The notes beneath the pieces are model-generated. The model was not told the origin of the DNA and searched no databases. It saw only the letters and a program-made list of their open reading frames with translations. Of a stretch of DNA of 64,000 bases, positions 919-5,986 are shown in pieces. The first letter of the stretch is position 1. Each line of letters begins with the position of its first letter. Made by a program: the position numbers and the translations under genes. This stretch comes from Methanocalculus natronophilus (GTDB lineage Archaea; Halobacteriota; Methanomicrobia; Methanomicrobiales; Methanocorpusculaceae). The stretch lies in the NCBI RefSeq assembly GCF_038751955.1, contig NZ_JBCEXH010000002.1:1-64000 (forward strand), given 5' to 3'.

Positions 919-1860
919 ATGGGTATGGATGATTCAGTGAAGAGTCGTGCCCTGATTGAGATCCGCCGGATCCTTGAAATTGCAGGGTATGATATCGAAG
1001 AAGAAGGGGATCCCTTCGATCTCTCTGCTTTTTTTGGTGATGATTGTATTCTGATTCTTGTCTCAGATGACCAGGCATGTGCGCGGACATTTGATAAGAA
1101 GCAATATAACCTTGAGGAAAACGGGGAGAAGATACCATGCAGAAAACTGATCGTTACCATGAATGAGCAGATCAGGCCTGCTGACTCCGCACTCTGGACA
1201 TTTGATGACCTCAGGCAGCTGGCTGGTGAGGCGGCAATAGCCCGTATCACCGAAAAGCCACTGTTAATCCAGTGGGAGACGACCAGGGGCAATCAGCGTG
1301 AAATCCAGAAACCAACCCAGACACCGGGGCAGATAACCTCCCTTCCTGTCCGTGTGAGCATGCAGGAGGCGATACGGATCTCCGGGGAGAAGGGGAAAAC
1401 CAGCCTCAGGCTGATACCGCACTGGGCATACCGGTATAGCTGTTCGGGAGATGCTGCATATAAAGGAAAGCAGATCAGTTTTGATGCTGAAGGTGCCGGC
1501 GTGATCAGCGCCATTAACGGACTTCCACAGGATGTCAACCCGGATGAGGCAAAGGAGAGCGAGATCCCAACAGATTCCGAGCTTGTAAGGCCATCCATCA
1601 CCGCGAATGAAGCCGAAGAAAAGATCATCTCTGCATTGATTGCCACGCTCTCAAAGCGGGTAAGGATTAAAACTGAGAGCGGAGATGCGATCTTTTCTGA
1701 AGAGAAGACCTTCAAACCCTCCCGGGAACAGATCGAAAGGGTATTCTGGCTCATGTATGTCCCCATCTGGCAGATCCGCGGCAGGCAGATTGTCGAGGTG
1801 AACGCATACACCGGCGAGATACTCTCTGAACCGATGGATGAGGGAGTAGAGCTCCTGTAA
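919..1860 (+). CDS. Conserved protein of unknown function
   Basis: I do not recognise the family. The product is about 313 residues from the ATG at 919. An in-frame start at 817 would overlap the divergent gene on the other strand and is less likely; an ATG at 925 is also possible. The protein looks soluble, mixed alpha/beta, with no signal peptide, membrane segment or cysteine cluster. The N-terminal half (ALIEIRRILEIAGYDIEEEG) resembles restriction-endonuclease-like folds in archaeal proteins, but catalytic residues cannot be assigned. The C-terminus (VFWLMYVPIWQIRG, then VEVNAYTGEIL) resembles PepSY-like segments that end in a Tyr-Thr-Gly-Glu turn. It ends 11 bases before the next gene and is probably co-transcribed with it. 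Confidence 0.6.
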   Translation: MGMDDSVKSRALIEIRRILEIAGYDIEEEGDPFDLSAFFGDDCILILVSDDQACARTFDKKQYNLEENGEKIPCRKLIVTMNEQIRPADSALWTFDDLRQLAGEAAIARITEKPLLIQWETTRGNQREIQKPTQTPGQITSLPVRVSMQEAIRISGEKGKTSLRLIPHWAYRYSCSGDAAYKGKQISFDAEGAGVISAINGLPQDVNPDEAKESEIPTDSELVRPSITANEAEEKIISALIATLSKRVRIKTESGDAIFSEEKTFKPSREQIERVFWLMYVPIWQIRGRQIVEVNAYTGEILSEPMDEGVELL

Positions 1861-1871
1861 GCGGTGAGTGT

Positions 1872-3197
1872 ATGCTGCTTGTGCTTGGTGGAGGGCCAGC
1901 CGGACGGCTGGCAGCAATCAGGGCTGCTGAAGCTGGTGTGGAGGTTACGCTGGTTGAGAAGCGGAGCCTTGGCGGCCAGTGTCTCCATGACGGGTGCATG
2001 CAGGTCTGCGGGTTGAATGATATCGCCAGGATCCTGGATGCGGCAGGATTGGCAGAGAGGGCTGGCATTACCCGTGGCAGGCTGGAGATTGATTTTCCCG
2101 GACTTATCAGGGAAATATCAGCGATACAGCAGACTATTGCCTCCATTCTCGATGATGAGACACGGAGTGCCGGTGTTGAGGTCATCTATGGCGCAGCCGG
2201 TGAGATCAGGGAAGGGAAACCATATATCGATGGCAGGGCAGCAGATGCAGAAAAGGTTATTGTCGCGACAGGATCGCGACCAAATATTCCAGACATTGAA
2301 GGGATTACACGTCCGGGCGTCTTCACACCACATACCCTGAAAGAGATCCCAGGGCTGCCGGAGCGGATCGGGATCATCGGCGGAGGTGTGATGGCAGCAG
2401 AGTTTGCCTATATCTTCTCCAAAATGGGAGCGGAAACCCATCTCTTCAGCCGGAGCAGGTTTCTTCACCAGATCCCCCCACGCCTTGCAAAAGAGGCAGC
2501 AAAAGATCTGGCTTCTGTTATCATCCATGAAGATGCGAACGTTTCTGCATGCCTTGGAGAGGAGAGGGTTACCGGGGTACGGCTGGATGGCACAACCCTT
2601 GACCTCGACTGCATCCTGATCGCAGCCGGACTCCTGCCAGACAGCGGCATGGTTACCGGTGTCAGGAAAGGCGAACATAATGAGATCCTGGTGAACAGCA
2701 GGTTTGAGACGAGTGTACCCGGCATCTATGCCTGCGGTGACGTGATTGGAGAGCCATGCCTCACCCCGGTTGCCCGTCTCCAGGGTGTAGCTGCAGCAGA
2801 TGCCGCTCTTGGCAGGGATAGTGCAGCTGATCTCACCTGCCTGCCGCGTTCGATGAGTCTTGGGTATGAATATACCTGGATGGATGCTGATGATGACGAA
2901 GGTGTATCCCTCACGCTCCCCGGCCCTGCCGGACCAGGTACATTCTGGTCTGTACCGGAGAGGAGAACCGGTATTGCGTCTTTGACAATCAACGAGGAGA
3001 GCGGCAGAGTCCTTGGGTTTGCCGAAGCTTCCCCGGCTGCCGGTGTTATGGGTATGTATCTTGGATACCTGGCAAAGAAGGGGGAGAGCGTTTGTGATCT
3101 GAGGGAGATCTTTGAAGTGCATCCAACCGCAGACGGGATGTATACGGCGATCAGGTATAGCGATTATCTCCTGAAAAAGAAGAGAGAAAAACCCTGA
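1872..3197 (+). CDS. FAD-dependent pyridine nucleotide-disulfide oxidoreductase (dihydrolipoamide dehydrogenase-like)
   Basis: This is a 441-residue flavoprotein of the dihydrolipoamide dehydrogenase/mercuric reductase group. The N-terminal FAD-binding motif GGGPAG is at residues 6-11, and the redox-active pair is C37 and C42 (GGQCLHDGC). A second dinucleotide motif (GIIGGGVMAAEFA) near residue 166 would bind NAD(P)H, and GIYACGD near residue 285 is the second FAD motif. The C-terminal dimerization domain carries VHPTADG, which keeps the active-site His-Pro pair but has Asp where the family usually has Glu. No lipoyl-complex genes are nearby, so a role in 2-oxoacid dehydrogenase is not supported; disulfide or coenzyme reduction is more likely. 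It follows the upstream gene by 11 bases. Confidence 0.85.
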   Translation: MLLVLGGGPAGRLAAIRAAEAGVEVTLVEKRSLGGQCLHDGCMQVCGLNDIARILDAAGLAERAGITRGRLEIDFPGLIREISAIQQTIASILDDETRSAGVEVIYGAAGEIREGKPYIDGRAADAEKVIVATGSRPNIPDIEGITRPGVFTPHTLKEIPGLPERIGIIGGGVMAAEFAYIFSKMGAETHLFSRSRFLHQIPPRLAKEAAKDLASVIIHEDANVSACLGEERVTGVRLDGTTLDLDCILIAAGLLPDSGMVTGVRKGEHNEILVNSRFETSVPGIYACGDVIGEPCLTPVARLQGVAAADAALGRDSAADLTCLPRSMSLGYEYTWMDADDDEGVSLTLPGPAGPGTFWSVPERRTGIASLTINEESGRVLGFAEASPAAGVMGMYLGYLAKKGESVCDLREIFEVHPTADGMYTAIRYSDYLLKKKREKP

Positions 3198-4487: not shown

Positions 4488-4694
4488 TCACCCCTCACGT
4501 TGCTTTCGGAGTTCCATAATACCCGCTACAACAGAATCAAAATCTTTTTCAAGCCACTGTTTGCGATCTCGTGTATAGTCTCCGCTGCCATGGGAATAAC
4601 TCTGGATAAAGCGGATAGTATCTACAGGGCCAAGGTGTTTTATCAGCACTTCAAAACCCTTGATCCTGACTTCATTGAGTGTTTTTGTTTCCAT
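4488..4694 (-). CDS. Small protein paired with a PIN toxin (putative antitoxin)
   Basis: This is a 68-residue charged protein with no recognised DNA-binding fold. It starts at an ATG preceded by a strong GGAGGTGG ribosome binding site. Its start overlaps the end of the PIN-domain gene by 23 bases, so the two are translationally linked. Small proteins with a GSGDYTRDRKQWLE-like segment commonly accompany PIN proteins, which suggests it neutralises the toxin. The order, toxin first and partner second, is the reverse of a typical VapBC operon. The antitoxin role is inferred from context only. Confidence 0.65.
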   Translation of the reverse strand: METKTLNEVRIKGFEVLIKHLGPVDTIRFIQSYSHGSGDYTRDRKQWLEKDFDSVVAGIMELRKQREG

Positions 4695-5130
4695 TTGATT
4701 CCACCTCCATGAGCCATTGTACTGGATTGTTTACAATAGTAGAGAGTATATCTTTGTGCTTCTTAATACCTCTGACGAGCATGTCATCGGTTGTAAGAAA
4801 TATGGCATTGCAACTTTCAGCAGATGCAATATGCAAAGCATCGAATGTATCAATACCCAAATTATGAATAAATCGGGCACGAGCAATAATATCTGTATTA
4901 ATCGGTATTCTCTCGCTAGAATATTGAAGAATATTTTCAACCGATTTTTTTCTTTCTGCATCTATCATTTGGGCGATCTCATATTCTACAACCTCACTGC
5001 TAACGAAAACCCAATTAACCATACACTGGCTGATTATTGCAATTATCGCTTCGGTCTCTATTCTGATCCGGTGTGACTCCTGATCATCAAAAGGTCGGCA
5101 TAAACAGCACACATCAAAATATACCTTCAT
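4672..5130 (-). CDS. PIN-domain ribonuclease (VapC-like toxin)
   Basis: The 152-residue product is a PIN-domain nuclease. The acidic metal-binding positions are visible: the N-terminal Asp in MKVYFDVCCLCRPFDD, an acidic residue in the VVEYEI segment, DTFDALHIASAE, and LTTDDMLVRG near the C-terminus. The ATG at 5130 is chosen because PIN proteins begin directly with the first strand; a GTG at 5148 would add six residues. Such proteins cut tRNA or mRNA as toxins. It overlaps the small partner gene downstream. The long spacer to the right probably contains its promoter. Confidence 0.85.
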   Translation of the reverse strand: MKVYFDVCCLCRPFDDQESHRIRIETEAIIAIISQCMVNWVFVSSEVVEYEIAQMIDAERKKSVENILQYSSERIPINTDIIARARFIHNLGIDTFDALHIASAESCNAIFLTTDDMLVRGIKKHKDILSTIVNNPVQWLMEVESNGNKNTQ

Positions 5131-5263
5131 GAACTCATCCAGTGCCACTATTAACCCACATCCACTTAAAACCAGTGTTTATTCGAATATAGCCATTCTA
5201 TCAAGTCGATGCGGGAAAGTATGTTGTTTACCTGGGATCCAGAGACTACAATCAAGCAGGAAG

Positions 5264-5273
5264 AAAATTTATG
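5264..5273 (+). promoter_or_regulatory. TATA-like box upstream of the structured RNA
   Basis: AAAATTTATG preceded by purine-rich GGAAGA resembles an archaeal BRE plus TATA box. Transcription would begin about 25 bases downstream, near 5295, just before the first hairpin of the structured region. This is positional evidence only. Confidence 0.35.
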
Positions 5274-5295
5274 ACTCTTCTCCAAAATTCTGATT

Positions 5296-5641
5296 GCCAG
5301 GTTTTCCTGAATTCTTCGGAACGTGGGAAAAGATCCTGAGTAGAGATCCTGATGCAGCAACCGGATAATTGGGAGTTGAGTGAAGCAGTTGCGGCGCGGG
5401 TATCGGGGGGCGGGGTCAATCGATGAGGATCAGGCGGACAGAGGTGATAAGCCCTTGCTCGAAAGAGCAATCCGTCAGGACGATTCGTAGAATCGGGGCA
5501 TATCTCCTCTGGCTGCCCCCGGAGTATTCCCGCCCCTCCCGCGCCAGCATCTGCGTTCAGCCAGTACAACCTCTCTTGCGAAGCATTTGCGGACGGGAAC
5601 GCGGGCGGTGGGGGCTTCTGACACGCAAATATCAGAGCCCT
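5296..5641 (+). ncRNA. Candidate structured non-coding RNA of unknown family
   Basis: Base pairing can be followed through most of this spacer by eye. A hairpin at 5302-5331 is capped by C(UUCG)G. A long arm pairs 5381-5400 with 5538-5559 (UGAA/UUCA, GCAG/CUGC, then GGCGCGGG/CCCGCGCC). It continues with GGGGCGGG (5407-5414) on CCCGCCCC (5529-5536). Further in, AGAGG-U-GAUA-A-GCCC (5440-5454) pairs with 5496-5510 across two 1x1 mismatches. It then closes a junction of three directly abutting hairpins: UUGCUC-GAAA-GAGCAA, UCC-GUCA-GGA and CGAUUC-GUA-GAAUCG (5455-5495). Downstream, 5612-5640 forms a hairpin whose loop CGCAAAU (5624-5630) can pair with AUUUGCG (5585-5591). GAAA and UUCG loops occur only when read on the plus strand. 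I found no RNase P or SRP RNA signature. Ends are approximate. Confidence 0.5.
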
Positions 5642-5986
5642 TATCCAACGTAACCCCATGCCTATCTCTGACTCTTCTACTACCAATAAGCTTAAGGACA
5701 GAAGATGAAGTAAATTTATGAATGTCAGAATATATTATGAATTTTACTAATTACATTGGTCAGACAATAGCGAATTGAGACTATTCATGTATTATTATGA
5801 CCTTTGGATAGTAATGACCTTCAGAAATATGGAGAAGAACCCGTAAAGTGCAACCCGGAAAGAGGGTGCAATTCAAGTGAAACTAATGGAGCGGGAAGAA
5901 GACATGAGCAGATACTTTTACCTCTGATCAGGGTGAGTACCACCGAAAGGAGGCGATGACGTCTGGACATCAGGGAAGAAGACGAA
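5642..5986. other. AT-rich spacer upstream of the HEAT-repeat gene
   Basis: No coding potential is visible here. The part around 5700-5810 is AT-rich, with several TATA-like stretches on both strands, and probably contains the promoter of the HEAT-repeat gene. An AGGAGG motif at 5949-5954 lies 32 bases before the chosen start of that gene and has no suitably placed in-frame ATG. Confidence 0.4.

Follow-up and report, generated by a model that had tools for sequence, protein, structure and literature searches.

The window, by which we mean the whole stretch of 64,000 nucleotides of Methanocalculus natronophilus DNA that was analysed, contains a repeated non-coding element bounded by terminal inverted repeats (TIRs), the features of which are collected in Table 1. 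A search of the same genome with positions 5180–5700 returned 50 matches at 69–100% identity, the window copy counted, and the stretch common to these copies, fetched with their flanks, runs from about 5273 to 5841. This is wider than the unit of 5296–5641 delimited in the first-pass annotation, which gives way to a true unit of 5273–5841 with a conserved core at 5381–5614. The ends of the element are mutually inverted, the left one reading GACTCTTCTCCAAAATTCTGA and the right one, read inwards, GGTTCTTCTCCATATTTCTGA, with TIR arms of 18 nt (5276–5293 and 5821–5838) that are 89% complementary; the element type that has the ends of the window copy is here named frame A. Neither of the two open reading frames that cover the region matches a Pfam family, so that no coding gene was found, as the first-pass annotation had stated, and a protein-coding explanation was rejected. 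Adjoining the element, a PIN-domain protein is encoded on the minus strand at 4672–5148 (PF01850, E = 5.6e-7); gene and element have no match at the orthologous place in two other genomes (G003, G005), and a similar stretch is located elsewhere in a third (G007).

Table 1. Features of the element and its left flank, in window coordinates.
Feature	Position	Strand	Remark
Probable remnant of left target-site duplication, AAATTTAT, outside the element	5265–5272	.	
Frame A MITE, whole non-autonomous element, 569 bp	5273–5841	+	extent common to dispersed copies; TIR-bounded
Left terminal inverted repeat, GACTCTTCTCCAAAATTCTGAT	5273–5294	+	91% mean pairwise identity among copies
UUCG-capped hairpin, frame A left arm	5302–5331	+	90% of cells paired, 21 copies; 3 doubly changed cells
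Structured core, 234 bp	5381–5614	+	common to frame A, frame C and hybrid elements
34-nt direct repeat, first copy (5' strand of lower stems)	5382–5415	+	
Core hairpin, 170 nt, modelled as R1	5385–5554	+	
Upper stem (5440–5454/5496–5510) and three-hairpin head (5455–5470, 5471–5480, 5481–5495)	5440–5510	+	minimum-energy fold
34-nt direct repeat, second copy, end of core	5580–5613	+	
Candidate downstream hairpin	5612–5640	+	frame A only; 77% of cells paired
Right terminal inverted repeat, minus reading GGTTCTTCTCCATATTTCTGAAG	5819–5841	-	88% identity among copies

Many copies share with the window only the stretch from 5381 to 5614, and their flanks reveal a second frame, C, which begins with GCCTCCTCGCTATTTCATGTGGGTAG and carries the inverted counterpart at its other end. 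Intact frame C elements mostly measure about 355–365 bp, within an overall size range of about 355–630 bp for the elements described here. Two further elements (L018 and L026) are hybrids that join a C left end to an A right end, and a head variant in which UCCGUCAGGA replaces ACCUGAAAGG is found both in A copies (the window, L009, L010 and L011) and in C copies (L064 and L065). Because of these hybrids and of the head variant common to A and C copies, the core is concluded to be exchanged between frames, for which recombination would be the simplest route. The 34-nt direct repeats of the core are 71% identical and spaced 198 bases apart, and one copy (L036) is devoid of the hairpin, with its junction placed within the direct repeat at the core end. 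In another sequence (L022, 1360–2065), core units form a partial tandem array that looks like the product of an amplification of part of the direct-repeat unit. With the covariance model built for the core hairpin (R1), 26 full core hairpins are identified in the genome of the window. Assembly breaks fall exactly at these terminal repeats in contigs C9, C15 and C35 of G004 and in contig C45 of G001, and further near-identical copies are therefore probably hidden by the assemblies.

Evidence of mobility was obtained from 34 elements with both ends located, by comparing eight bases on each side. The flanks are 82% AT, and the mean number of matching positions is 5.32 of 8, against 2.89 when right flanks are shuffled among elements (maximum 4.15 in 20,000 trials); perfect 8/8 target-site duplications are found in 8 of the 34 elements, against a mean of 0.26 under shuffling. 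Such AT-rich 8-bp duplications are expected of ISL3 derivatives, and the intact ISL3 elements identified in the analysis have them too. In M. taiwanensis, a core-bearing frame A element of full length (L050) is flanked by a perfect 8-bp duplication (AGAATAAA), and perfect duplications likewise flank the frame C elements L023, L028, L066, L067, L069 and L070; the right terminus of L023 was taken from the sequence itself, the BLAST extrapolation being a few bases off. Also among the eight is L113, which has frame-A-type ends and no core. Coreless non-coding elements of greater length, with ends of this type, are seen at L113 1264–2073, where the perfect duplication is TTACTTCT, at L114 ~1300–3172 and at L117 ~950–1756. 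A transposase was looked for within the larger elements L113 and L114, and only short open reading frames, with no evident transposase, were found.

The window copy has no recognisable target-site duplication (1/8), and an empty site for it was not found, the orthologous regions being all rearranged. In the sister species G004, however, two contigs end at termini of this type and continue, respectively, the left and right neighbourhoods of the window; in both of them AATTTATC adjoins the terminus, that is, directly before and after the TIR element at the orthologous site. This sequence, set against the AAATTTAT of window positions 5265–5272, suggests one old insertion shared by both species, the right flank of which would have been rearranged later in the window genome. 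The same observation bears on the TATA-like box pointed out in the first-pass annotation: this AT-rich stretch, at 5265–5272, falls in the target-site flank beyond the left end of the element and does not belong to the repeat, and the presence of AATTTATC beside both G004 termini marks it as target sequence. In G004, the right flank of the orthologous site (L158, G004:C27) contains extra coding-looking sequence between the element end and a HEAT-repeat gene, possibly a gene pair of toxin–antitoxin type as judged by eye; since this sequence is absent from the window, the insertion spot looks like a variable site.

The origin of these elements is indicated by their ends. The C-terminal remnant of an ISL3 transposase (PF01610, E = 1.6e-11) is encoded in the window genome about 330 bp from a TIR of frame A type (L015). 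Elsewhere in the order Methanomicrobiales, an intact ISL3 element (L164) has the frame C end GGTTCTTCGCTATTTCATGTGGGT and the target duplication AAGAAATA, and another ISL3 element (L166) has an end, GGTTCTTCTCCAGATTTAGG, that is close to the frame A end, its duplication being unreadable where the contig ends at one terminus; two more ISL3 elements (L165 and L167) show perfect 8-bp duplications. The ends of both frames thus match those of elements encoding DDE_Tnp_ISL3, through L164 for frame C and through L166 and the L015 remnant for frame A, and on the strength of this match frames A and C are classed as non-autonomous ISL3-type elements. The resemblance lies in the ends; no interior common to the ISL3 elements and the MITEs was seen. 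A recurrent module of the type CATCCTCCGGGGGGGCA...CCATCCCC is found close to the ISL3 remnant (L015 1080) and also behind some of the cores (L064, L073).

The element of the window combines the properties by which MITEs are recognised, namely the lack of a transposase or other gene inside it (its open reading frames are without Pfam match), TIRs like those of autonomous insertion sequences, and multiple dispersed copies with target-site duplications, even if the window copy itself is without an intact one. We hence regard positions 5273–5841 as very probably a copy of a Methanocalculus-specific, non-coding MITE with ISL3-type ends, moved by ISL3-type transposition. In the process that we infer, an ISL3-family (DDE) transposase would act in trans on the TIRs and insert the element with 8-bp AT-rich target duplications. 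The element, devoid of genes, carries as its conserved load the 234-bp core, with its long hairpin and three-hairpin head. This core also travels in another MITE family, the ISL3-type ends of which are different, and the hybrids and the shared head variants point to between-family exchange by recombination. Present-day activity is doubtful, because no intact ISL3 transposase was found in the eight Methanocalculus genomes searched, and the elements may be relics in this genus.

The core has a narrow distribution. The R1 model finds its hairpin in six of the eight Methanocalculus genomes and has no match in 224 genomes of the order outside Methanocalculus, and an exact core motif searched in 84,980 species genomes occurs only in Methanocalculus and in one genome entered under Methanocorpusculaceae (UBA456) that appears to be of the same genus. 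M. taiwanensis and M. chunghsingensis both carry cores. The exact motif is absent from IMG/VR, and distant blastn searches of phages and plasmids gave no match, so that a virus, phage or plasmid origin was rejected. No paper on the core or on Methanocalculus repeats was found in the open literature, which does not prove that none exists.

Elements of this general kind have precedents. Table 4 of Kamoun et al. (2013; PMC3852290) lists for Methanosarcina acetivorans an ISL3-derived MITE of 179 bp in six copies, with ISMac21 as partner, which resembles the Methanocalculus elements in being archaeal, non-coding and multi-copy and in having ISL3-type inverted repeats (22 bp there) and short direct repeats; its entry gives repeats of 7 bp, however, and mentions no structured core, whereas the Methanocalculus elements measure about 355–630 bp, have at least 26 core copies in one genome and 8-bp duplications, and carry their core in two end types. 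The Methanomicrobiales insertion sequences L164, L165 and L167 share with them the terminal repeats and the 8-bp target duplications, but at ~1.29 kb they encode a transposase and have no room for the core. Among bacterial MITEs, Correia/NEMIS and ERIC are likewise mobile repeats of small size that encode no protein and have both TIRs and stable stem-loops, their transcripts fold, and NEMIS RNA has been proposed to influence neighbouring mRNAs via RNase III (Delihas, 2008; PMC2229807). In those elements, the 5' and 3' ends pair into the stem of an element of 100–200 bp (PMC2229807), whereas the Methanocalculus fold occupies a core of its own in the middle of the element, bears a three-hairpin head and does not depend on the type of end. 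The Methanocalculus elements are hence of the same kind as known MITEs, and what sets them apart is a large, separately conserved core, foreign to Rfam, in families with different ends.

Both the long nested pairing and the set of three abutting hairpins described in the first-pass annotation can be read from the sequence and belong to the minimum-energy fold, which on the plus strand reaches −149.3 kcal/mol (z = −3.43), a stability attained by none of 100 shuffles. The minus strand stands out just as much (z = −3.58), as for any palindrome, and folding alone therefore picks no strand; the GAAA loop that had been put forward as plus-strand evidence is not conserved, and most copies have AUCA instead. 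The pairing itself, for which covariation in homologues had been proposed as the check, is conserved. Across 62 distinct homologous hairpins, standard pairs are formed in 95.2% of cells and 15 of 59 pairs contain double changes, with 67 doubly changed cells against 22.0 ± 3.7 in shuffles, a count not to be read as a probability, since the copies are relatives of one another and were aligned so as to fit the structure. Controls with slid partners lower pairing to 38–52%, and in helices 5–8, which make up the upper stem and the head, 91–99% of cells are paired and nine pairs are doubly changed. These figures were derived after realignment to the covariance model, an initial MAFFT/RNAalifold alignment having misplaced two head variants and understated covariation. 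A possible loop pseudoknot of the downstream hairpin with 5585–5591 is paired in 82% of cells, with one pair broken in half of the copies; this value, like those in Table 1 for the UUCG-capped and downstream hairpins, was counted without a control in copies with frame A ends only, and these three features show almost no double changes. Among 12 frame A elements, identity is 92–95% in the outer stems, 88–91% in the ends and 70–76% in the arms, and judging by these values the fold is held about as constant as the ends needed for recognition by the transposase; in the middle segments of the core, the rate of change equals that of the arms.

What role the core has is a separate question from the mobility of the element, and substitution patterns provide some information on it. 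At positions of G-C pairs, G-U is seen in 84 cells and 23 pairs against 25 cells and 15 pairs for A-C, and at sites of equal exposure a tree supports 59 C-to-T against 35 G-to-A events, on a background in the frame A arms of 9.7% for C-to-T and 7.9% for G-to-A. The bias is modest and, because recombination and relatedness inflate the counts from these non-independent sequences, it speaks weakly for a plus strand that pairs as RNA. In a crude call of open reading frames, convergent ones flank half of the 52 copies considered, a setting in which a structured element would fall in the 3' regions of transcripts. On this basis, transcripts from flanking genes may read into the element, in which the hairpin, kept as a plus-strand RNA structure, would stabilise or end them and so make insertions tolerable, a reading that we find quite possible and put forward tentatively. 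It is more doubtful that the core represents a new Methanocalculus-specific class of structured RNA that two or more ISL3-type MITE families with different ends carry and spread, and for which selection on the plus strand would maintain an action on the transcripts of neighbouring genes.

Other explanations compete with the RNA step. The core could be a hairpin extruded at the DNA level, where stalled replication or exposed single strands, for instance, would let it aid movement or recombination of the MITE without any role as RNA. The equal stability of the minus strand, the position of the core where hybrids switch ends, the deletion located in its direct repeats and the lack of a known promoter or own transcript all agree with such a hairpin, but the more than threefold excess of G-U over A-C cells is not predicted by pure DNA pairing, and the ISL3 elements L164, L165 and L167 moved though they have no core of this kind; this leaves it possible, if somewhat unlikely. 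The arms of a hairpin can also stay matched through template switching or gene conversion in the absence of selection, and template switching can correct palindromes, so that the core might be a neutral passenger spread with the MITEs and paired solely through hairpin-driven conversion from arm to arm. The middle segments, evolving at the rate of the arms, fit this idea; outer stems as conserved as the TIRs, next to flanks at 70–76%, do not, and conversion between arms preserves pairing but not, by itself, the same sequence across copies, for which reasons we deem a neutral passenger decidedly unlikely.

An RNA of independent standing faces greater difficulties. A genuine stand-alone non-coding RNA gene carried by transposons would account for the compensated structure, for stems more conserved than their flanks, for the slight plus-strand bias and for the failure to match Rfam, and is nevertheless very improbable, given that 26 diverged copies in one genome misfit an essential RNA gene, that two of eight Methanocalculus genomes are without the core hairpin and that no conserved promoter accompanies it, the TATA-like box being external to the element. 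There is almost no chance that a known large RNA (RNase P RNA, SRP RNA or part of a group II intron) escaped the first reading: size and complexity alone speak for one, whereas the region is multi-copy and bounded by TIRs, and cmscan against Rfam 15 matched nothing in the window but one tRNA at gathering thresholds and yielded a single chance match (E = 5) at a permissive setting, so that a known family was rejected at the sensitivity of Rfam and the earlier failure to place the region in one is borne out. From the initial proposal of a noncoding RNA, possibly novel, there survives a conserved non-coding structure without an Rfam family; the idea of a stand-alone gene, some 345 nt long and preceded by a TATA box of its own, gives way to the core of a multi-copy MITE, and a novel RNA is possible for that core only.

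What looked in a methanogen like a convincing orphan structured RNA thus turns out to be a module borne by a transposon, which marks a trap for the discovery of archaeal non-coding RNAs. It is unusual, moreover, for the cargo of a MITE to have a fold as strongly conserved as the ends of the transposon and common to families with different ends. Were the core to act as RNA, mobile elements would be seeding regulatory RNA structures between the genes of Methanocalculus, a prospect that the 26 copies in this one genome make directly testable.
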